The position numbers and the translations under genes were made by a program. DNA of 42,572 nt, taken from positions 1 to 42,572 of the forward strand of contig CANDKY010000025.1 of NCBI GenBank assembly GCA_947385425.1, read 5' to 3'. Position 1 is the first letter of the stretch, and every line of letters begins with the position of its first letter. This document shows positions 2,257 through 31,700 of the stretch, piece after piece. The stretch is from an uncultured Lachnospiraceae bacterium (lineage in GTDB: Bacteria; Bacillota; Clostridia; Lachnospirales; Lachnospiraceae). The notes below the pieces were generated by a model. That model did no database searches and was not told where the DNA came from. It saw nothing but the letters and a program-made list of their open reading frames with translations.

Positions 2257-5200
2257 TTAGAGCCTGCAAATGCCAATGTTAACCTTTTCCCCATTCACAT
2301 TCCATTCCTTCCTGCTCCATGCCCCTGCAGACGTCCCTTCCTCATCCGTCCGCATTTCATCCGCCAGTACCTTCTCCGCAATTACATCTCTGTTCTTTTC
2401 CACTATGGAAGCGATTTTCCCATTTCCGCTAATTTCCACCCTGATATGATCCATCACTTCATAGCCCGCATCCTTCCGCATTGTCTGGATTTTGCTTAGT
2501 ACTTCATACACAAAGCCTTCCTCTATCAGTTCTTCCGTCAGGTTCGTATCCAGCACGACTGTCATGGTATTGTCCGCCTCCGACACATAACCTTCCTTCT
2601 GGCTCATTTCAATCAGCAGATCGTCTTTTGCCAGTTCCACAGCTACGCCGTCAACCTCAAAGGCCAGCCGCCCCTTCCCGTTCAGTTCATCCATAGCCGC
2701 ATTGCCGTCCAATGCCGCAAGGGCCGTCCTAATCCCTCCAAGCTGTTTGCCATACTTTGGCCCTACCGTCCGCAGTTGGGGTTTGAACGTATAACTGGTA
2801 AAATCACGCACATCATCCGTGAAGCTGACTTCCTTTACATTCAGTTCTTCCTTGATGATATCCTGATAAAAACCATCCAGTGAATTGGAAGCCTTTACAA
2901 ACATCCGCCCGATAGGCTGGCGGTTCTTGATATTGGCCGTATTCCTGGCAGCCCTTCCCATAACCACTACTTTAAGGACCTCATCCATATCCTCTTCCAG
3001 TTTCCTGTCAATTACCGCCTCATCCGCTTTCGGGTAATCGCACAGATGGATACTCTCCGGAGCGGTGCTGTCAATCCCGCACACCAGATTGCGGTAAATG
3101 TCCTCTGTCATAAACGGAATGATCGGCGCCGCACATTTGCATACGGTAATCAATGCCGTATACAATGTCATATATGCATTGATTTTATCCTGTTCCATCC
3201 CTTTCGCCCAGAAACGCTCACGGCTCCTGCGCACATACCAGTTGCTCATCTCATCCACGAAGCCATCCAGCGCCCTTGCCGCCTCAGGCAGCCTGTAATT
3301 CTCCAGATGGCCGTCCGCTTCCTTCACCAGCGTATTCAGTTTCGACAGCAGCCACTTATCCATAACCGGAAGTTTTTGGTAATCAAGCTTATGCTGCGAC
3401 GCATCAAAACCGTCAATATTCGCGTAAAGGACAAAGAAAGCATAGGTATTCCACAAGGTGCCCATAAACTTACGCTGGCCTTCCATAACCGCTTTCCCGT
3501 GGAAACGGTTTGGCAGCCATGGCGCCGAGTTGATGGTAAAATACCAGCGGATAGCATCCGCCCCATAAGTTGCCAGCGCATCAAACGGATCCACCGCATT
3601 CCCTTTGGATTTACTCATCTTCTGTCCATTCTCATCCTGTACATGGCCGAGGACAATTACGTTTTCAAAAGGCGAACAGTTAAATAACAGCGTAGATTCT
3701 GCCATCAAAGAGTAGAACCACCCTCTGGTCTGATCTACGGCTTCAGAAATAAACTGTGCCGGGAACTGCTGTTTAAACAGATCTTCGTTTTCAAACGGAT
3801 AATGGTGCTGTGCAAAAGGCATGGCGCCGGAATCAAACCAGCAGTCAATCACCTCCGGCACGCGTTTCATTGTCCCGGCGCACTTCGGGCAATTACAGGT
3901 TATCTCATCGATATACGGCCTGTGAAGCTCCACGGTACGCGCCGCCGGATTCCCGCTCATTTCCTCCAGCTCTGCCCTGGAACCGATTGCCTCCTGGTGC
4001 CCGCAGCTTTCACATTCCCACACATTCAGCGGCGTCCCCCAGTAACGGTTTCTGGATATTCCCCAATCCTGGATATTTTCCAGCCAGTTGCCGAAACGCC
4101 CCTCCCCAATGGACTCCGGAATCCAGTTAACCGTCTTATTATTGCGCACCAGGTCATCCCTCACTGCCGTCATCCGGATAAACCAGGACTCCCTGGCATA
4201 ATAAATTAACGGCGTATCGCACCGCCAGCAGAACGGGTAGTCATGTTCAAATTTCGGTGCGCTGAAAAGTTTCCCTTCCTTGTCCAAATCCTTTAATATC
4301 TCCGGATCCGCGTCTTTGACAAATTTTCCGGCATAAGGGGTTTCTTCCGTCATATTCCCTTTGCCGTCCACAAACTGTACAAAAGGCAGATCATACCGCC
4401 TCCCGACCTGCGCGTCGTCCTCACCAAAAGCAGGCGCGATATGCACGATACCCGTACCATCCGACATAGTAACATAATCGTCACAGGTTACAAAATGCGC
4501 CCTCTTGTTCTGTTTGGCCGCCTCCTCCCCTGTACATGCGAATAACGGCTCATATTCCATATTCTCCAGATCCCTGCCCTGATAAGTCTGCAGCACTTCG
4601 TAGGCAGGCTTCCCTTCCTCCGCCAGTTTCCCCAGCACATTGTCAAGCAATGCCTGGGCCATATAATAGGTATAACCGTCTGCCGCCTTCACTTTGCAAT
4701 ACACCGCGTCCGGGTTCATACACAATGCCGTGTTTGAGGGCAGCGTCCAGGGAGTTGTCGTCCATGCAAGGAAATATGCGTCTTCCCCTGCCACTTTGAA
4801 ACGCACAACGGCAGAACGCTCCTTCACCGCCTTGTACCCCTGCGCCACTTCATGGGAAGACAGCGGTGTGCCGCAGCGCGGGCAGTAAGGCACGATTTTA
4901 AAGCCTTTATACAACAGCCCTTTATCCCAAATCTGCTTTAATGCCCACCACTCCGATTCAATAAAATCATCGTGGTAAGTCACATAAGGATCCTCCATAT
5001 CCGCCCAGAAACCGACCGTACCGGAAAAATCCTCCCACATGCCTTTATATTTCCATACACTCTCCTTACACTCCCGGATAAAAGGATCCAGGCCGTATTC
5101 CTCTATCTGCTCCTTCCCATCCAGCCCCAACTTCCGCTCCACTTCCAGTTCCACCGGAAGGCCATGGGTATCCCATCCTGCTTTACGCGGGACCATATAC

Positions 5201-5427
5201 CCCTTCATGGTACGGTACCTTGGTATCATATCCTTAACCACACGCGTCAGCACATGCCCGATATGAGGCTTCCCGTTTGCCGTCGGAGGCCCGTCATAGA
5301 AAGTATAAACCGGCCCGTCCTTACGGTTCTCCATACTTTTCCTGAAAATATCATTCTCCTTCCAAAACTTTTCCGTCTGCTTCTCCCGCTCTACAAAGTT
5401 AAGATTCGTAGATACTTTCTGATACAT
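2257..5427 (-). CDS. ileS: Isoleucyl-tRNA synthetase
   Basis: Charges tRNA-Ile with isoleucine in the cytoplasm. It is a class Ia synthetase: the HIGH signature occurs as PHIGH near residue 55 and the KMSKS loop as KMSKSKGN near residue 600. An editing domain lies between them and the anticodon-binding region is C-terminal. It ends in a long extension instead of the short zinc-finger tail, the layout usual for the ~1040-residue type of IleRS. The start at 5427 (MYQKVSTNL) is preferred: AAAGG lies 9 nt upstream of it. A second ATG at 5436 immediately follows the same AAAGG with no spacing. Expression is probably controlled by the Ile T-box at about 5893-6246. Between that T-box and the gene lie four tandem hairpin units, an unusual addition to a synthetase leader. 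Confidence 0.97.
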   Translation of the reverse strand: MYQKVSTNLNFVEREKQTEKFWKENDIFRKSMENRKDGPVYTFYDGPPTANGKPHIGHVLTRVVKDMIPRYRTMKGYMVPRKAGWDTHGLPVELEVERKLGLDGKEQIEEYGLDPFIRECKESVWKYKGMWEDFSGTVGFWADMEDPYVTYHDDFIESEWWALKQIWDKGLLYKGFKIVPYCPRCGTPLSSHEVAQGYKAVKERSAVVRFKVAGEDAYFLAWTTTPWTLPSNTALCMNPDAVYCKVKAADGYTYYMAQALLDNVLGKLAEEGKPAYEVLQTYQGRDLENMEYEPLFACTGEEAAKQNKRAHFVTCDDYVTMSDGTGIVHIAPAFGEDDAQVGRRYDLPFVQFVDGKGNMTEETPYAGKFVKDADPEILKDLDKEGKLFSAPKFEHDYPFCWRCDTPLIYYARESWFIRMTAVRDDLVRNNKTVNWIPESIGEGRFGNWLENIQDWGISRNRYWGTPLNVWECESCGHQEAIGSRAELEEMSGNPAARTVELHRPYIDEITCNCPKCAGTMKRVPEVIDCWFDSGAMPFAQHHYPFENEDLFKQQFPAQFISEAVDQTRGWFYSLMAESTLLFNCSPFENVIVLGHVQDENGQKMSKSKGNAVDPFDALATYGADAIRWYFTINSAPWLPNRFHGKAVMEGQRKFMGTLWNTYAFFVLYANIDGFDASQHKLDYQKLPVMDKWLLSKLNTLVKEADGHLENYRLPEAARALDGFVDEMSNWYVRRSRERFWAKGMEQDKINAYMTLYTALITVCKCAAPIIPFMTEDIYRNLVCGIDSTAPESIHLCDYPKADEAVIDRKLEEDMDEVLKVVVMGRAARNTANIKNRQPIGRMFVKASNSLDGFYQDIIKEELNVKEVSFTDDVRDFTSYTFKPQLRTVGPKYGKQLGGIRTALAALDGNAAMDELNGKGRLAFEVDGVAVELAKDDLLIEMSQKEGYVSEADNTMTVVLDTNLTEELIEEGFVYEVLSKIQTMRKDAGYEVMDHIRVEISGNGKIASIVEKNRDVIAEKVLADEMRTDEEGTSAGAWSRKEWNVNGEKVNIGICRL

Positions 5428-5445
5428 GATCTCCATCCTTTCTTA

Positions 5446-5880
5446 TTCCAGTTCCGCATCCAGCTCAAAAGGCACCTCACCGGCAGAGGAAAAACCGCCC
5501 CTAATGCATGGTCTGTTTTTCCTCTGGGTGCCTTTTGCGCCAGATGCTGTTTTCCAGTTCCGCAGCTAACACATATGGCGCTCCCCAGCAGAGGAAAAAC
5601 CGCCCTTAATGCATGATCTGTTTTTCCTCTGGCGCCATCTGTGTTAGATGCTGTTTTCCAGTTCCGCATCCAGCTCAAAAGGCACCTCACCGGCAGAGGA
5701 AAAGCCGCCCCTAATGCATGGTCTGTTTTTCCTCTGGGTGCCTTTTGCGCCAGATGCTGTTTTCCAGTTCCGCAGCTAACACATATGGCGCTCCCCAGCA
5801 GAGGAAAAACCGCCCTTAATGCATGATCTGTTTTTCCTCTGGCGCCATCTGTGTTAGATGCTGTTTTCCAGTTCCGCATC
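5446..5880 (-). repeat. Tandem structured hairpin repeats in the ileS leader (ABAB)
   Basis: Two copies of a 210-bp period, each made of two related units: 5446-5551 (A), 5552-5655 (B), 5656-5761 (A), 5762-5865 (B), plus a partial start at 5866-5880. On the ileS sense strand each unit folds into one long hairpin. The inner stem CAGAGGAAAAA/TTTTTCCTCTG and the loop containing CATGCATTA are shared. The outer stems differ: CAAAAGGCACC/GGTGCCTTTTG in A, and CTAACACA/TGTGTTAG plus ATGGCGC/GCGCCAT in B, each self-complementary. Units are separated by a constant GCGGAACTGGAA linker, and the last linker abuts the ileS ribosome binding site. The repeats lie downstream of the T-box terminator, inside the read-through mRNA. 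The A and B copies are nearly identical between periods, which points to recent duplication. Confidence 0.85.
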
Positions 5881-5892
5881 CACGTTTGATGC

Positions 5893-6246
5893 GAAAAAAA
5901 AGGCCCCGTCCGTAAAAGGACGGGGCCTGCTGCCCGTATACCACCCGTTACATCATACGCCTGCTTGCATTCGGAAACATTTTCCGCCCCAAAAATGGTG
6001 CCTCCCATGCATCGCCTGCTCACAGGTTATATGGTATCCGTTAACGGCGGACTGCCGTCGGTGCCTACTTCCTGTCCGCTTATCCAACAAAAAAACGCCG
6101 GATTAAGGTTCAGCCCGCAACTCAAGAGTGATATTCAGTATTCCTTACTCATACCGGCCTCCCACCGCCGCCGGCTCGCTGCAAATTTCTGGCAATACCT
6201 ACTGTCTCCATCATCGTCTTTCCTTCTGTTTATGCAATTCTTACAG
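5893..6246 (-). ncRNA. T-box riboswitch, isoleucine specific (ileS leader)
   Basis: The minus strand shows the T-box order. Stem I elements include AGCGAGCC and GGTGGGAGGC. The specifier segment GAATATCACTC has AUC as specifier codon (6130-6132), which matches Ile. The T-box/antiterminator sequence AACGGGTGGTATACGGGC (5932-5949) corresponds to the GGGUGGNACCGCG core. A strong intrinsic terminator follows (5894-5927). Uncharged tRNA-Ile is expected to stabilise the antiterminator and permit ileS transcription. The 5' end is estimated from the promoter at 6255-6284. Confidence 0.88.
5894..5927 (-). terminator. Regulated terminator of the ileS T-box
   Basis: Minus-strand 10-bp perfect GC stem (5918-5927 with 5902-5911), 6-nt loop, followed by eight T (5894-5901). 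It lies immediately after the T-box sequence. Confidence 0.9.
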
Positions 6247-6652: not shown

Positions 6653-6901
6653 GGTGCCGGCTCCGCGTCCGGAGAGGCCCTGCCTGCTTTTTGCATCGTT
6701 TTGGATGGTGGTTTTTCTTAGCAGAAGGGGCTAAACCCAGGGAAAAATGGCCATGGATGGCCATTTTAGGCAGTACGGGACAAGGATGTCCCATACTGCC
6801 GGCCCGGACGGTGCCCAAACTTACATCTTCTGCTTAGAAAAACCCCGTCCAAATAAGCTGCAAAAAGCAGGCAGGGCCTCTCCGGACGCGGAGCCGGCGC
6901 C
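6653..6901. repeat. Fold-back element with 75-bp inverted arms and nested palindromes
   Basis: Arms of 75 bp at 6653-6727 and 6827-6901 are near-perfect reverse complements (GGTGCCGGCTCCGCGTCCGG at one end, CTTAGCAGAAG at the inner end). The 99-bp centre has two more palindromes: AAAATGGCCAT/ATGGCCATTTT, and GGCAGTACGGGACA with TGTCCCATACTGCC. The whole could form a three-hairpin cruciform. There is no gene and no clear target duplication. It may be a non-autonomous element or a structured intergenic repeat. Confidence 0.75.
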
Positions 6902-20281: not shown

Positions 20282-23200
20282 TTACAGCAGCCTCTCTTCC
20301 ATAGACCCAAGCAGTTCCTCTGTAGCTTCCAACAGCCGTTCCGCATCCCTTTCCACCATCCCGCATTTCTTATAACGGAACCTAAACTGCGGCACGCCTT
20401 TTGTCTGGAATGACAGCTTAGGATATTTTTTCAGCAAATCCGGTATGCCGTCCGTCCGGATTCCCGCGTCCTCATTCATCTGAAACAGGATGGCTTCATT
20501 TTTTCCCCGTATTTCCGACATATACAGCTTGTGCGCCTGTACACGGATCAGGGCAATGCGCAGGAGATTGTCCACGGATCTGGGGATCTCCCCGAAACGG
20601 TCTAGCAGCTCCTCCCTCATATCCTCGCTCTCCGCATGGTTCTCGATACTTGCAATCCGTTTATAAATGTCCAGCTTCTGGAACTCATTTACAATATAGG
20701 AAGGAGGGATAAACGCATCCACATCCAAATCTACCGTAGTATTGAAATCTTCCTTTGTCTCCAGCCCCTTCAGCGTTTTTACCGCTTCATTCAGCATCTT
20801 GCAATACATGTCATAACCAACCGCCTGCATATGGCCATGCTGCCTGGCACCCAGAAGGTTGCCTGCGCCGCGGATCTCCAGATCCCGCATAGCTATCTTG
20901 AACCCGCTCCCCAGGTAGGTAAACTCCCGGATAGCCGCCAGGCGCTTCTCCGCCACTTCCTTTAACATCTTATCCCTCCGGTACATGAGAAAAGCATAGG
21001 CAGTGCGGTTGGAACGCCCCACACGCCCGCGAAGCTGATAAAGCTGGGAAAGCCCCATGTTATCGGCATCATGGATAATAATCGTATTGACATTGGAAAT
21101 GTCAAGCCCTGTCTCTATGATGGTAGTGGACACCAGCACATCGATTTCCCCGTCAATAAATTCATACATAATCTTTTCCAGCTCATGTTCTTTCATCTGT
21201 CCATGGGCAAACGCCACATCCGCCTCCGGCACCAGTTCGGACACCCTGGCCGACACATCCGCAATGTTGTTGACACGGTTATAGACATAATATACCTGCC
21301 CGCCCCTGGACAGTTCCCTGACGATAGCCTCGCGCACCATTTCCTCATTATACTCCATCACATAAGTCTGGATAGGAAGCCGATCCTCCGGCGCTTCTTC
21401 CAGTACGCTCATATCACGGATACCAATCAGGCTCATATGCAGCGTCCGCGGGATCGGGGTAGCCGTCAATGTCAGCACATCTACCGTTTCTTTCATTTTC
21501 TTTATTTTTTCTTTGTGCGTTACCCCAAAACGCTGTTCCTCATCGATAATCAGAAGCCCCAGATCCTTGAATACCACATCCTTAGACAATACCCTGTGTG
21601 TCCCGATCACGATATCCACAAGGCCCTTGCGCAAATCCTCCACGGTCTTTTTTATTTCCGACTGCGTGCGGAAGCGGGACATCAGGTCAATCCGCACAGG
21701 GAAATCCTTCATTCTCTGCACAAAGGTATTGTAATGCTGCTGCGCCAATATCGTAGTCGGCACGAGGTAGACCACCTGCTTGCTCTCCTGCACTGCCTTA
21801 AACGCTGCCCGGATTGCTATCTCTGTCTTGCCGTAGCCTACATCCCCGCAGACCAGCCGGTCCATAATTTTTTTACTCTCCATATCCGCTTTTGTATCCG
21901 CGATGGCCGCCAACTGGTCCTCCGTCTCCTCATAGGGGAACATCTCCTCAAATTCCTGCTGCCATATGGTATCTTTCCCATAAACATACCCTTCCTGCTG
22001 CTGCCGGATGGCATACAGTTCCACCAGATCCTTTGCCACTTCATTTACGGCACTTTTGACCTTGCTCTTCGTCCGGCTCCACTCCTGTGTCCCCAGTTTG
22101 TTCAGCTTCGGCCTGTGGGCATCCGCGGAAGCATACTTCTGTATCACATCCAGCCCTGTTGCAAGAATATAAAGATTGCCGCCGTCCCGGTACTCTATCT
22201 TGATATAATCCTTGACAACCTTCTCCACCTCCACTTTCTCAATCCCTTTATAAATCCCAAGGCCATGGCTTTCATGCACTACATAATCCCCAACCTTCAA
22301 ATCCGCAAAATCATTTATTTTCTGCCCTTCATACTTTTTCTTTTTCCGCTTTTTCTTTTTCTCCGTGCCGAAAATATCGCTCTCGGATATCACAACGAAT
22401 TTGATCAACGGATATTCAAAGCCTTTCTGCACATGTCCGTAGAAAGTCATTATTTCCCCCGGCTGTATCTCCCGGAACGGATCTTCGCTGTAGAAACCGG
22501 CCAGCCCCTCATCCCGCAGATCCTCCGCCAGCCGTTTTGCCCTTGTCCGCGAACCGGAAAGAAGCAGCACCCGGAAACCGTTCCTGCGATAATATTTCAA
22601 GTCTTTTACCAGCGCTTCGAAACTGTTATTATAAGAGGCAACACTTTTTGCGCCGATGTCAAACTTCCTCTCTGCTTTCAGGAGCATATTCTTCCTGTCA
22701 ATGGCCGAAAACATCGCCACCCGGCCCGATGCCATTTTTGCCGCCACTTCCTCTGTGCCAAACAGGATATCCGTCTGCACAGGCAGGGCATATCCCTTCT
22801 CCAGGCGATGCATCATGCTTTCACGGAATTCCAGTTCCACTGCATCCGCATGTTCCTTCACCCTGGCCGGTTCATCAATAAAAATGCCGCTTTTGTTTGC
22901 GTCAAACAGTTCCAGGAAAGACACGGTATCGGGATAAAAACAGCGTATATAACTTTCCAGGTTTGCCGATGTGCGCAACTGCGAAACTTGTTCCTTCAAT
23001 TCCCCGATCTGGAACAGCAGGCGGTGCGCCTCTTCCGTTTTAAATGACTCCCGCAGTTTACCCGCACAGGTTTTTGCCTCCGCCTCAATCCGCTCCATAC
23101 CCTTTTCCAGCTCTTCCTGGGAAAGCACCATCTCCGTGGCCGGATATATACTGATAGACTGCAGTGTTTCGATAGAGCGCTGGCTTAAAATATCAAAGCT

Positions 23201-23812
23201 GCGGATGGATTCCACTTCCTCCCCCCACAATTCTACCCGGTACGGATTTTCTTCCGTCAAATCAAAAATATCCACGATTCCGCCCCGGATGCTGAACTGC
23301 CCGGGCATCTCCACCTGGTAATTCCGTTCATACCCCATTTCCGCCAGCCGGCCTGCCAGATCCTGTTCCCGGACCGACGACTGCTGCCCGATTGTTACCA
23401 CATTTTCCTCCAGTATTCCCAAAGGGACCTGCGGTGTCATCAGGCTCCCGAAAGTAGTCACCACAGTCAGGGGCCTTCCTTCCATCACACGGCGCAGCGC
23501 TTTCATCCGCTCCTTTACCAACTGGTTCCCATGGACGTCCGCCTGATAGAAAATAAGATCCTTAGCCGGATATAACGTCACATTCCTGTCATAAAGCTGA
23601 TAGTCCTCATAAATTTCCCTTGCCCGCAAATCACTGAAAGTAACGATGATTTTATACTTAAGGCCCAAACCATCGCTCAATCCATATATCATATGCAATT
23701 TCTGGGAATCGACACAGCCGGTCAGGGCCACGGCCCTTCCTGTTTTCTTTAAAAAACCTTCAATCTCCTCAAACTCCCCTAATTCATGCAAGGGGGCCGT
23801 AAATGTCCTCAT
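20282..23812 (-). CDS. mfd: Transcription-repair coupling factor Mfd
   Basis: A 1176-residue DNA translocase that removes stalled RNA polymerase and recruits UvrA. The N-terminal UvrB-like modules (about 1-330) include the GGIVDIFDLTEENPYRVELWG segment. The RNA-polymerase-interacting domain begins around KVGDYVVHESHGLGIYKGI (about 500). The helicase core has Walker A GDVGYGKTE (about 657), the DEEQ box in IIDEEQRFG, LTATPIPRTL and QLRGRVGRSNR, and a C-terminal TRCF domain closes the protein. The length is normal and no disruption was seen. It follows pth by about 120 bp, the common Firmicute order pth-mfd, and is followed closely by cotH. A 658-residue open frame on the opposite strand is a shadow. 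Confidence 0.97.
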   Translation of the reverse strand: MRTFTAPLHELGEFEEIEGFLKKTGRAVALTGCVDSQKLHMIYGLSDGLGLKYKIIVTFSDLRAREIYEDYQLYDRNVTLYPAKDLIFYQADVHGNQLVKERMKALRRVMEGRPLTVVTTFGSLMTPQVPLGILEENVVTIGQQSSVREQDLAGRLAEMGYERNYQVEMPGQFSIRGGIVDIFDLTEENPYRVELWGEEVESIRSFDILSQRSIETLQSISIYPATEMVLSQEELEKGMERIEAEAKTCAGKLRESFKTEEAHRLLFQIGELKEQVSQLRTSANLESYIRCFYPDTVSFLELFDANKSGIFIDEPARVKEHADAVELEFRESMMHRLEKGYALPVQTDILFGTEEVAAKMASGRVAMFSAIDRKNMLLKAERKFDIGAKSVASYNNSFEALVKDLKYYRRNGFRVLLLSGSRTRAKRLAEDLRDEGLAGFYSEDPFREIQPGEIMTFYGHVQKGFEYPLIKFVVISESDIFGTEKKKKRKKKKYEGQKINDFADLKVGDYVVHESHGLGIYKGIEKVEVEKVVKDYIKIEYRDGGNLYILATGLDVIQKYASADAHRPKLNKLGTQEWSRTKSKVKSAVNEVAKDLVELYAIRQQQEGYVYGKDTIWQQEFEEMFPYEETEDQLAAIADTKADMESKKIMDRLVCGDVGYGKTEIAIRAAFKAVQESKQVVYLVPTTILAQQHYNTFVQRMKDFPVRIDLMSRFRTQSEIKKTVEDLRKGLVDIVIGTHRVLSKDVVFKDLGLLIIDEEQRFGVTHKEKIKKMKETVDVLTLTATPIPRTLHMSLIGIRDMSVLEEAPEDRLPIQTYVMEYNEEMVREAIVRELSRGGQVYYVYNRVNNIADVSARVSELVPEADVAFAHGQMKEHELEKIMYEFIDGEIDVLVSTTIIETGLDISNVNTIIIHDADNMGLSQLYQLRGRVGRSNRTAYAFLMYRRDKMLKEVAEKRLAAIREFTYLGSGFKIAMRDLEIRGAGNLLGARQHGHMQAVGYDMYCKMLNEAVKTLKGLETKEDFNTTVDLDVDAFIPPSYIVNEFQKLDIYKRIASIENHAESEDMREELLDRFGEIPRSVDNLLRIALIRVQAHKLYMSEIRGKNEAILFQMNEDAGIRTDGIPDLLKKYPKLSFQTKGVPQFRFRYKKCGMVERDAERLLEATEELLGSMEERLL

Positions 23813-23934
23813 TTTATATCCATGCCTTTCTTTTCCTGTTCCGCGGAAATTCCGTTACAGGCGCCTCCTCCTGTGGGGACTTTCCCTCTATTCTTTTAAA
23901 CGGTTGTTTCCCTGTAATTTCTTCAAACCTATTT

Positions 23935-29582: not shown

Positions 29583-30623
29583 ATGGGCCAATTAAAAATT
29601 TATAAGGATAACTATGTGGATGCCACAGCCGTATCCAATATTTTTATTGATGAATATATCAAAGACGCAAACGATGCACAACTTAAAGTCTACCTTTACC
29701 TTATCCGGATGATAAATGCCAACCTGCCCGTCAGCATATCCGATATTGCTGACAAATTCAACCATACGGAAAAGGATGTATTACGGGCGCTGAAGTACTG
29801 GGAAAAACACCGCCTGCTTTCTTTGGAGTATGACGATGATAAGAGCCTTTCCGGCATCCACCTTCTGGAACTGAACCGTCCGGAAGAAACGGCAGCCGGC
29901 AAACCCCTGGCTCCTGTCGTAACACTCGTTTCCAAACCGGCAGCGGCCCAGGCCGATCCCTATGTAAAACCGGCCTACACCTTAGACCAGTTAAAAGCTT
30001 TCAAATCCGACGAAACCACTTCGCAGCTCCTTTTTATTGTGGAACAGTATATCGGTAAAACATTGTCCGCCTCCGAGATTAGGACTGTCCTGTTCCTTTC
30101 GGACAAGCTGGGATTTTCCGTCGATTTGATCGACTATCTGGTACAATACTGCCTGGAGCGGGGCAAGAAGGACTTCCATTACATAGAAAAAGTTGCAATC
30201 CGCTGGGCACAGGAAGGCATCCATACACCGGAAGAAGCCGAAAAACAGACTTATAAATATGAGAAAATTGTATATGATATTATGAAAGCACTTGGCAAAA
30301 GCAATACGCCTACCGACAAAGAAGCTGATTTTATCATATACTGGACCAAAAGGTTAGGCTATGGTATGGATATCATTTCCATTGCCTGTGAGCGCACAGT
30401 CCTGAGCACGGACAAGCACCGGTTTGAATATGCGGACAGCATCCTGAACAACTGGCACCGCGCCGGTGTCCGCCACGTTACCGATATCGCCAGGGCAGAC
30501 GAGACTTTCAAACGCGCAAAGGCGTCCCAGCCCCGCCTCTCTTCCAATGCCAACAAATTCAACCAGTTCAAACAAAACAGCTACGATTTTGATGCATTGG
30601 AGAGAGAACTCCTGCAAAACTAA
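29583..30623 (+). CDS. dnaD: DnaD-domain replication initiation protein
   Basis: A 346-residue primosome component. The N-terminal winged-helix domain (about 1-105; QLKVYLYLIRMINANLPVSI and DIADKFNHTEKDVLRALKYW) resembles DDBH1. A Pro/Ala-rich linker follows. Two tandem DnaD-like DDBH2 domains come next: about 140-220 and about 222-300, the latter ending in SILNNWHRAGVRHVTDI. The double DDBH2 layout is longer than Bacillus DnaD (about 230 residues). The C-terminal tail is Lys/Gln/Asn-rich. The start follows AGGTG by about 9 nt. It is in line with dnaI and probably cotranscribed across the intervening hairpin. DnaA-box-like sites lie upstream. Confidence 0.92.
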   Translation: MGQLKIYKDNYVDATAVSNIFIDEYIKDANDAQLKVYLYLIRMINANLPVSISDIADKFNHTEKDVLRALKYWEKHRLLSLEYDDDKSLSGIHLLELNRPEETAAGKPLAPVVTLVSKPAAAQADPYVKPAYTLDQLKAFKSDETTSQLLFIVEQYIGKTLSASEIRTVLFLSDKLGFSVDLIDYLVQYCLERGKKDFHYIEKVAIRWAQEGIHTPEEAEKQTYKYEKIVYDIMKALGKSNTPTDKEADFIIYWTKRLGYGMDIISIACERTVLSTDKHRFEYADSILNNWHRAGVRHVTDIARADETFKRAKASQPRLSSNANKFNQFKQNSYDFDALERELLQN

Positions 30624-30626
30624 TAA

Positions 30627-30730
30627 CAGTTCCCGCTGTCTGGTTCCCCCAGAGTAAAAGCCGGCCCTGCTCTTCGGACGGTTTTTGCTCTGCTGGCTCA
30701 GGGAGACGGACGGCGGGAGCGGAACTGGAA
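30627..30730 (+). repeat. Structured hairpin element before dnaI (ileS-leader family)
   Basis: The gap between dnaD and dnaI is one long hairpin. CAGTTCC at the left end pairs with GGAACTG at the right, GTCTGGTTCCC pairs imperfectly with GGGAGACGGAC, and an inner stem CAGAGTAAAA pairs with TTTTTGCTCTG. The inner stem is followed by CTGCTGG and the element ends GCGGAACTGGAATAA. The ileS-leader units have the same plan (CAGAGGAAAAA/TTTTTCCTCTG, CTGCYGG, GCGGAACTGGAATAA) and the same sense orientation, immediately before the downstream start codon. Confidence 0.7.
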
Positions 30731-30737
30731 TAAAATT

Positions 30738-31700
30738 ATGCCACTTAACAATAATCAGTACGATTCCATAATCCGTACATACGAAGAAAAGCAAAATAAG
30801 AACCGATATCTTCTGGAAGAACGGCGCAGCTATGTCTACCAAAAGATTGACGGCTACAAGGAACTGGCTGATTCCATCGCCTCCATCTCGGTGCAGCAGG
30901 GCAGGAAACTTTTAAGCGGCGATGAAACCGCCCTTACCGAACTCCGCCGGCTTCTCCGGGAACTGTCGGAAGCAAAAAACGGGCTGCTGCTTTCCGCCGG
31001 GCTGCCTGCCGACTACCTGGAACCCGTTTACGACTGCCCGGACTGCCGGGATACAGGTTATATCGACGGAAAAAAATGCCACTGTTTCCGCCAGGCGGAG
31101 ATCTCCCTTCTGTATGAGCAGTCCAATATCAGCCAACTGTTGGAAAAAGAAAACTTTTCCACCCTTTCCTACGACTATTACCAGGGAGAAGACCTCGCCC
31201 GTTTCCGGAGCGCAGCCGAGGCAAGCAAAAAATTTGCACGAAATAAAGATTTTGACTACCACAATTTATTTTTTTATGGTACAGTGGGTACAGGCAAATC
31301 ATTTCTTTCCGGCTGTATTGCAAAAGAAATGATTGAAAACGGCCGTTCTGTCATATATTTCAGCGCCGTCCGTTTATTTGAAACATTGTCCCAGATTTCC
31401 TTTGACCATAAAAGCAAAGAAGATCTCCATAATATGCATCACGACCTGTATCAGTGTGACCTGCTTATTATTGACGACCTGGGGACAGAGCTCACCAACA
31501 ATTTTATTACCACACAGTTGTTTTCCTGCCTGAACGAAAGGCATATACGCCGAAAACCTACCATTATTTCCACCAATTTATCCCTGGAGGAATTAAGAAA
31601 CCGTTATTCGGACAGGATATTTTCCCGTATCATGAGCAACTACCAGATATATAAGCTGACCGGGCCGGATATCCGTATACGCAAAAAACTGAACAGATAA
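30738..31700 (+). CDS. dnaI: DnaI/DnaC-type helicase loader ATPase
   Basis: A 320-residue AAA+ protein that loads the replicative DnaB-type helicase. The N-terminal helical region is followed by a Cys cluster CPDCRDTG-KKCHC (about 100-116), probably zinc-binding as in DnaI. Walker A is GTVGTGKS (181-188) and Walker B is LLIIDDLG (about 242-249). Sensor and arginine-finger regions follow (IISTNLSLEEL, RYSDRIFSRI). No strong Shine-Dalgarno sequence precedes the ATG; GGAAC and GGAATAA of the structured element occupy the place, so translation may depend on that structure or on coupling with dnaD. prs starts 34 bp after the stop. Confidence 0.94.
   Translation: MPLNNNQYDSIIRTYEEKQNKNRYLLEERRSYVYQKIDGYKELADSIASISVQQGRKLLSGDETALTELRRLLRELSEAKNGLLLSAGLPADYLEPVYDCPDCRDTGYIDGKKCHCFRQAEISLLYEQSNISQLLEKENFSTLSYDYYQGEDLARFRSAAEASKKFARNKDFDYHNLFFYGTVGTGKSFLSGCIAKEMIENGRSVIYFSAVRLFETLSQISFDHKSKEDLHNMHHDLYQCDLLIIDDLGTELTNNFITTQLFSCLNERHIRRKPTIISTNLSLEELRNRYSDRIFSRIMSNYQIYKLTGPDIRIRKKLNR

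Follow-up and report, generated by a model that had tools for sequence, protein, structure and literature searches.

REP and BIME sequences are high-copy palindromes that lie between genes and come with RAYT transposases. The BOX elements of Streptococcus pneumoniae are described as short stem-loop repeats that are scattered over the genome, are transcribed, and contain internal modules in tandem; these boxA-(boxB)n-boxC composites form 5' or 3' extensions of operons, one of them lies between the T-boxes of a trp leader, and their terminal inverted repeat has been likened to that of ISSpn2 (PMC3049150). The Correia/nemis elements of Neisseria are reported close upstream of genes, and their transcripts are cut by RNase III; Correia elements are bounded by terminal inverted repeats, are capable of inversion, and carry promoters in some subtypes (PMC10969869). 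Both BOX and Correia/nemis are described as transcribed hairpins thought to be mobile (PMC3049150, PMC10969869). The pan motif, for which protein binding was suggested, is an interrupted stem that occurs mostly in tandem 5' of genes of one pathway (PMC2864571).

The hairpin family described here is large and unnamed, and lies nearly always in one orientation before Shine-Dalgarno (SD) sequences in some gut Lachnospiraceae. Its nearest kinds are transcribed palindromic repeats akin to BOX and nemis, from which it is set apart by its sense, SD-adjacent placement and by the lack of conserved terminal inverted repeats. In a comparison confined to the description of BOX, both are interspersed hairpins that are, or here would be, transcribed, and the array studied here follows the T-box of ileS much as one BOX element lies in the trp T-box leader; however, whole units are repeated in our family, no conserved terminal inverted repeat was recognized, and nearly all arrays are in sense and end a few nucleotides 5' of an SD. 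With Correia/nemis elements, as described, the units share a position close 5' of genes, but nearly all have one orientation and most seem to be intercistronic. Tandem interrupted stems upstream of genes likewise recall the pan motif as reported, whereas the present units front dozens of unrelated genes and are absent from most genomes searched. From REP/BIME palindromes, the family differs in its unit of about 105 nt, its single orientation, and its freely varying stems, and Y1_Tnp does not track it.

In agreement with the sequence-only reading of this DNA, which did not recognize the units as a named RNA class, Rfam gave no family over the units of the window, over 20 loci from other genomes (E values up to 1), or over 20 loci from the same genome (gathering threshold). 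Overlaps with MIR9486 (16 bits against a gathering score of 100, plus strand) and with HOXB13-AS1_1 (22.5 against 60, on the strand opposite the L286 unit) were weak and far short of gathering. The T-box model did not match the units, and its matches were separate and upstream of them. Among open-license papers, judged by titles and abstracts, no description of such a repeat or RNA was found.

In the window, i.e., the whole 42,572-nt stretch of the uncultured Lachnospiraceae genome (G000) that was analyzed, the array occupies positions 5446 to 5882 of the minus strand and consists of two 210-nt blocks, each composed of one A unit and one B unit of 105 to 107 nt, with a leading solo tail (Table 1). 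The blocks (5446-5655 and 5656-5865) are 100% identical in an ungapped comparison at a 210-nt period (99% in TRF). Repeat detection and covariance model matches therefore bear out the ABAB order, the unit length of about 105 nt, and the 210-bp period that had been read from the sequence. The A and B units have almost the same inner stem and differ in their outer stems, each of which is self-complementary, and the array lies between the T-box terminator and the ribosome binding site, directly 5' of the ileS SD, both as previously claimed. A comparison with congeners makes the second ATG, at 5427, the likely true ileS start. The tail GCGGAACTGGAA occurs exactly at six sites in the window (five in the ileS array and one at 30719), compared with a chance expectation of 0.11 with one mismatch allowed.

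Table 1. Positions of the hairpin units and neighboring features in the window
Feature	Position	Strand	Description
T-box leader, RF00230	5913..6223	-	66.6 bits, E 4.9e-14, below the Rfam gathering score of 93
T-box intrinsic terminator hairpin and U-run	~5895..5931	-	from sequence
Solo tail TGGATGCGGAACTGGAA	5866..5882	-	17-nt repeat family D2; between T-box terminator and unit 1
Unit 1, type A, first in mRNA	5762..5866	-	outer stem CTAACACA/TGTGTTAG; R1 97.2 bits; covarying stem
Unit 2, type B	5656..5762	-	outer stem CTGGCGCAAAAGGCACC/GGTGCCTTTTGAGCTGG; R1 109.7 bits
Unit 3, type A	5552..5656	-	R1 97.2 bits
Unit 4, type B, nearest SD	5446..5552	-	R1 110.6 bits
Native ileS SD AAGAAAGG	5437..5444	-	from sequence; 15 array-free congeners keep GAAAGGATG
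ileS, 1059-aa ORF	2257..5436	-	directly after SD AAGAAAGG
Single unit (fifth copy)	30624..30730	+	R1 89.5 bits; begins right after stop codon 30621-30623 of ORF 29583..30623
ATP-binding protein, downstream gene	30738..31700	+	NF005304 343.8 bits, cut-off 215

The fifth copy in the window, which had also been noted before, was recovered by the model as a single unit that spans the gap between a stop codon and the next start. It ends 7 nt 5' of the ATG at 30738, and its tail, GGAACTGGAA, is the sole SD-like stretch before that codon. The downstream ORF also matches DnaC and DnaI models, but below their cut-offs. Elsewhere in the window, GCGGAACAGGAA at 23833-23844 (minus strand; 12.4 bits, E 0.28) lies shortly 5' of the ORF at 20282..23812 (minus strand) and is perhaps a relic of the tail. 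TwoAYGGAY RNAs (RF01731) were found near two hairpin arrays, at 6696-6857 (plus strand) in the window and at 2938-3101 (minus strand) in L169, with 93.4 and 97.5 bits, respectively.

The family extends throughout the genome. A DNA search with one unit gave 63 matches, and the covariance model R1, built from an alignment of 26 units of this genome (A2), gave at least 147 (the best 150 of 2,765 first-look candidates were scored) in at least 88 arrays. Because whole-genome model searches scored at most 150 candidates per genome, the counts for this genome are lower bounds and low-copy carriers were missed. Among the matches listed, the 88 arrays comprised 49 single, 25 double, 9 triple, 4 quadruple, and 1 quintuple arrangements. 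Selection for unlike neighbors was considered as a cause of the ABAB order and was rejected, as several arrays have neighboring units with identical outer stems. The tail joined to the SD, CGGNACTGGAATAGGAG, occurred 63 times in the genome and its reversed control not at all; a comparison of the two lists placed 24 of these sites outside the R1 matches. Of the 20 such sites inspected, 12 contained full-length units, 3 contained units cut at contig ends, 2 contained mini-hairpins with the same ends (L337 and L341), and 3 were without such a hairpin (L333, L346, and L350). Many of the units at these extra sites belong to another subtype, whose inner stem resembles GGAAGGATTTCAGGACGC...GCGGCCGGAAATTCTTCC and which is near the majority consensus over 14 genomes.

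Each unit is an RNA hairpin of about 105 nt that runs from a 5' CAG through a long interrupted stem to a 3' CGGNACUnnAA. The 5' CAG and 3' CGGNACU at the base of the helix were invariant in all 52 rows of A5, a structure-blind alignment from 14 genomes; a few loci outside A5 deviate at the helix base (L295, L296, and L300). Mini-units with the same ends and a short hairpin were also observed (L337, L341, and the flanks of C14:35576, C79:14579, and C163:4992 in G000), which suggests that the element is defined by its ends rather than by its long stem. In 66 of the 88 arrays, the sequence 5' of the first unit repeats the tail over 10 or more matching bases, with a shared length of 10 to 58 nt. 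In several arrays, this similarity breaks off close to where the outer arm ends (29-38 nt), which is possibly a trace of an insertion or duplication mechanism.

The placement of the arrays relative to genes is strikingly uniform. Junctions in this genome read ...GCGGAACTGGAA|TAGGAGGannnATG, and arrays typically end in the context ...GCGGAACTGGAA|TAGGAGG...ATG. Of the 84 arrays with enough sequence, 77 were followed within 80 nt by the start of a sense ORF of 80 aa or more, and antisense ORFs of the same minimum length were found within 80 nt in 19 of 86. In other genomes, 55 of 60 loci from 12 genomes (the better matches, one unit per locus, of 74 matches) were directly followed by a sense ORF of 70 aa or more, and 12 of 60 had an antisense ORF of that minimum length; both sets of counts rest on ORFs, with limits of 80 and 70 aa, rather than on curated genes. 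The antisense ORFs near arrays are probably mostly chance ORFs. In six of the seven exceptional arrays, a sense ORF of 50 aa or more begins no farther than 125 nt away: three have ORFs of 57-77 aa at 14-18 nt, and three have a sense ORF start 85-123 nt away (C93 is overlapped by antisense ORFs). At the remaining one, C10:25181, no sense ORF of at least 50 aa lies nearer than 399 nt. Two of the five misses in other genomes are followed by the start of another unit.

The distance from tail to start codon was narrow (median, 14 nt; interquartile range, 12-16; n = 80), and GGAG, AGGA, or GGAGG lay between the two in 71 of 80 cases, with only AGG or GGA in 8 and none of these in 1. Since 59 of 86 arrays have a co-directional stop codon (open frame of at least 100 codons) within 75 nt upstream, most arrays seem to be intercistronic. 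T-boxes were located 5' of the unit in 2 of the 20 other-genome loci scanned with Rfam (L316 and L299). A bias toward 5' leaders, which the sequence-only reading had singled out as worth checking, was thus evident in both sets of genomes, with units just 5' of gene starts and in sense. Random placement and orientation without covariation had been named there as the signature of a plain palindromic repeat; the opposite was found.

Pairing within the units is maintained while the sequence changes. In A2, 89.8% of cells were paired, compared with 67.5% after shuffling, and 29 of 35 pairs had changed on both sides; covariation exceeded that in all 500 shuffles and in all slid controls, with a scored structure that was the hand-edited RNAalifold fold of the same 26 units. 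In A5, 90.7% of cells were paired (68.0% shuffled) and 28 of 29 pairs had changed on both sides, with the RNAalifold consensus of A5 itself as the structure. Between neighbors whose inner stems are identical, over one-third of the outer pairs may differ, with pairing mostly kept; in L145, 7 of 20 outer pairs had changed on both sides and 15 of 15 inner pairs were the same. Against such a clean picture, neighbors in L193 and L196 had six and five unpaired outer cells, respectively. Common inner stems with outer stems that differ block-wise and still mostly pair were observed in L145, L171, L162, and 5446-5866 of the window. For the ileS array as a whole, the minimum free energy was -198 kcal/mol (z = -9.9; 100 dinucleotide shuffles), and in this predicted fold some units pair with one another rather than folding singly. 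One hairpin per unit, as in the earlier view, is the structure that covariation in the alignments backs.

DNA-level maintenance of a palindrome should yield G-U and A-C combinations about equally often. In A2, likewise aligned without regard to structure, G-U outnumbered A-C by 36 to 11 (p = 0.0003), and by 22 to 2 where both neighboring pairs were Watson-Crick. The sense strand gave the more stable fold in 110 of 119 units of this genome and in 68 of 69 units of other genomes, units of unusual length being left out. A model-fitted alignment, which may lean toward G-U, gave 94:21 in the outer stem and 41:6 in the inner stem (94 matches kept after removal of near duplicates; 2 antisense matches of 125 left out), and our argument relies on the structure-blind alignment rather than on this one. 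Because of the excess of G-U and the better folding in sense, we consider the pairing to be kept at the RNA level. The block-wise differences between the neighbors in L145, with both arms changed beside an identical inner stem, are what template switching could yield, and they would suit a palindrome that acts in DNA alone and stays paired through cruciform activity or quasi-palindrome correction. The strand asymmetry disfavors such a DNA-only palindrome, as does the sense orientation before SDs, and we regard it as very unlikely. The unit is an RNA hairpin under selection for pairing, oriented with the downstream gene and placed before its SD. The units show covariation above controls, sense orientation, and leader position, the features of a structured cis-acting mRNA element, and the claim that changed but paired stems mark a selected RNA was upheld, with covariation far above both types of control.

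We propose, with a probability of roughly 0.45 for the explanation as a whole, that the family is a mobile, SD-docked mRNA hairpin that insulates leaders and intercistronic junctions and perhaps aids processing, and that the ileS array is a local expansion of this dispersed family. The repeat would spread as a mobile element and would be retained because of what its hairpin does. Each self-contained hairpin would end near the upstream edge of the footprint of the initiating ribosome, leaving the SD free, and would separate the gene from what lies upstream, i.e., the preceding cistron or, in ileS, the leader read through from the T-box. It might also be cleaved by an enzyme of the RNase III type. 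Arrays of several units, of which that at ileS is one, would stem from duplication, each further unit being one more insulator of the same kind. We infer such a function and a mechanism of mobility, together with transcription with the gene, spread, and a role in insulation or processing.

The base of the helix lies about 22-26 nt (about 10 + 14) before the start codon, close to where the footprint of an initiating 30S subunit has its upstream limit. Shuffling of the array lowered the predicted accessibility of the SD in 62 of 78 cases (p = 3e-6); compared with deletion of the array, the values were 0.612 and 0.589, with the natural sequence higher in 49 of 78 (p = 0.21). Because accessibility exceeds that of the shuffled array but not significantly that of the deletion, the array is predicted to be harmless to the SD, not better than none, and the idea that it frees the SD was weakened. 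Insulation would not be essential, because the element is missing from many congeners. Also considered was a translational switch with the inner 3' arm as an anti-SD. AGGAGGAAAA is a possible pairing partner of this arm (UUUUCCUCUG or UUUUCUUCUG), but the predicted duplex of the arm with the SD of its own locus (-5.85 kcal/mol) had no advantage over those with the SDs of other loci (-6.12 kcal/mol; own lower in 34 of 80), a weak test given that the SDs are nearly alike. We hold this switch to be scarcely credible.

The units are patchily distributed over several genera. Within the genus, R1 matched 7 of 16 genomes (own included) and the model R2 matched 6 of 16; neither matched such near-complete congeners as G001, G002, G003, and G012. 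In the ileS tree, carriers occupy at least two separate places of the genus, amid noncarriers. Carriers on record by name include Bacterium 1xD8-48, isolate C2 MGBC000269, and isolate B54_54_AM_H MGBC000114. Units were found in 8 of the 49 searched genomes of named relatives (49 of 80 loci given; 79 candidates scored per genome), in at least 8 of 397 genomes, own included, of an even sample of the family (9 candidates scored per genome), and in the own genome only among 391 of a class sample (10 candidates scored per genome). The ileS leaders of all 15 congeners are without an array and keep GAAAGGATG, and at the ATP-binding-protein locus, no unit was found in 13 congeners.

Among 80 named ileS loci, a few of which have little leader, R1 gave no match and R2 matched only L064, an uncultured Lachnospiraceae genome whose ileS is 77% identical; R1 had been trained on units of the window genome and missed this unit. 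The L064 unit (2871-2983, plus strand; 45.7 bits) lies between the T-box terminator and the ileS SD and is preceded by a solo tail. The same place has thus been filled again, independently or by old descent, and with the window genome and L064 filled and 15 congeners empty, the ileS leader may be a hot spot of insertion. In L255, R2 gave a weak match (17.9 bits, E 0.044) within the ileS coding region, which was taken for chance. Between the T-box terminator and the SD of ileS, L251 and L254, from the congeners G014 and G005, have other palindromic repeats, namely, a CGGGC...GGCGC hairpin and then a second one ending in CCTACTCG.

With a single match at 80 ileS loci and mixed downstream genes, regulation specific to ileS was rejected, and no special tie to this gene was supported. 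The downstream genes identified with NCBIfam are diverse and mostly metabolic or housekeeping (20 of 79 given, 4 without a family); they include asparagine synthase, IMP dehydrogenase, aroE, hisG, dxr, ilvB, gntP, rmlA, cysteine desulfurase, and aminopeptidase. When 27 downstream sequences of G013 (from 30 of 67 matches) were compared with the 84 downstream genes of G000, only 3 of the latter were hit. The patchy presence, the empty sites, the refilled ileS place, and the little-shared gene sets suggest movement or turnover of the repeat. Of the options raised by the sequence-only reading, that of a mobile RNA-like repeat is supported by the 147 matches in 88 arrays and from the empty orthologous sites.

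The same observations, i.e., the separate places on the ileS tree, the three shared downstream genes, the empty sites at both loci, and the refilled L064 site, would also be expected of a selfish repeat without host function: a palindrome targeted to SDs, or to mRNA and copied back, that needs the hairpin for its own mobility, so that the sense, SD-adjacent pattern would reflect targeting plus removal of harmful insertions. RNA-level pairing fits this account, as does an almost constant tail and SD beside a remaining leader that differs. Against this account, neither a target-site duplication nor a conserved terminal inverted repeat was recognized: the long stem begins just inside the unit ends, its sequence is not conserved between copies, and the ends themselves, AAACAGC and GCGGAACTGGAA, are inverse only in their closing GC/GC pairs, unlike the terminal inverted repeats of MITEs. 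The upstream tail, a candidate duplication (at least 10 bases in 66 of 88 arrays), varies in shared length from 10 to 58 nt, with empty sites compared at two loci. Dispersal by RAYT/Y1 was rejected because the Y1 transposase (PF01797) does not track the units: G005 has 20-24 unit matches and no PF01797, and the transposase is present in G001, G002, G003, G007, and G012, where the units gave no match. Carriage by phages or plasmids was likewise set aside, with no array match in phages or plasmids and no exact tail-plus-SD match in viral contigs. We consider a purely selfish repeat possible, if unlikely.

A protein or RNA that binds the CAG/CGGNACU helix base, the asymmetric 3' bulge, and the inner stem could instead place the tagged genes under joint translational control, with tandem units raising binding. 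Such a regulon element is consistent with the invariant or nearly invariant positions that stand out against stems free to vary, with the tandem arrays (39 of 88 loci), and with the narrow distance to the start codon. The tagged genes are functionally mixed, though, and their sets barely overlap between species, unlike those of a conserved regulon; we hold such a regulon element to be improbable. A bolder reading, which seems rather unlikely, is that of an RNA-level mobile element that copies its hairpin into mRNA leaders at the SD, so that all insertions are in sense and compatible with translation. In several Lachnospiraceae lineages, such an element would separately have given dozens of housekeeping genes, and the ileS site on two occasions, a shared module for translation or mRNA processing.

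The family offers a ready case for telling RNA-level selection from DNA-level palindrome maintenance. With many natural insertions and empty orthologous sites, the effect of the units on translation, operon coupling, and mRNA processing is directly testable. It would show mobile palindromes becoming, or passing as, leader modules of housekeeping genes, with their stems rewritten while RNA pairing stays.
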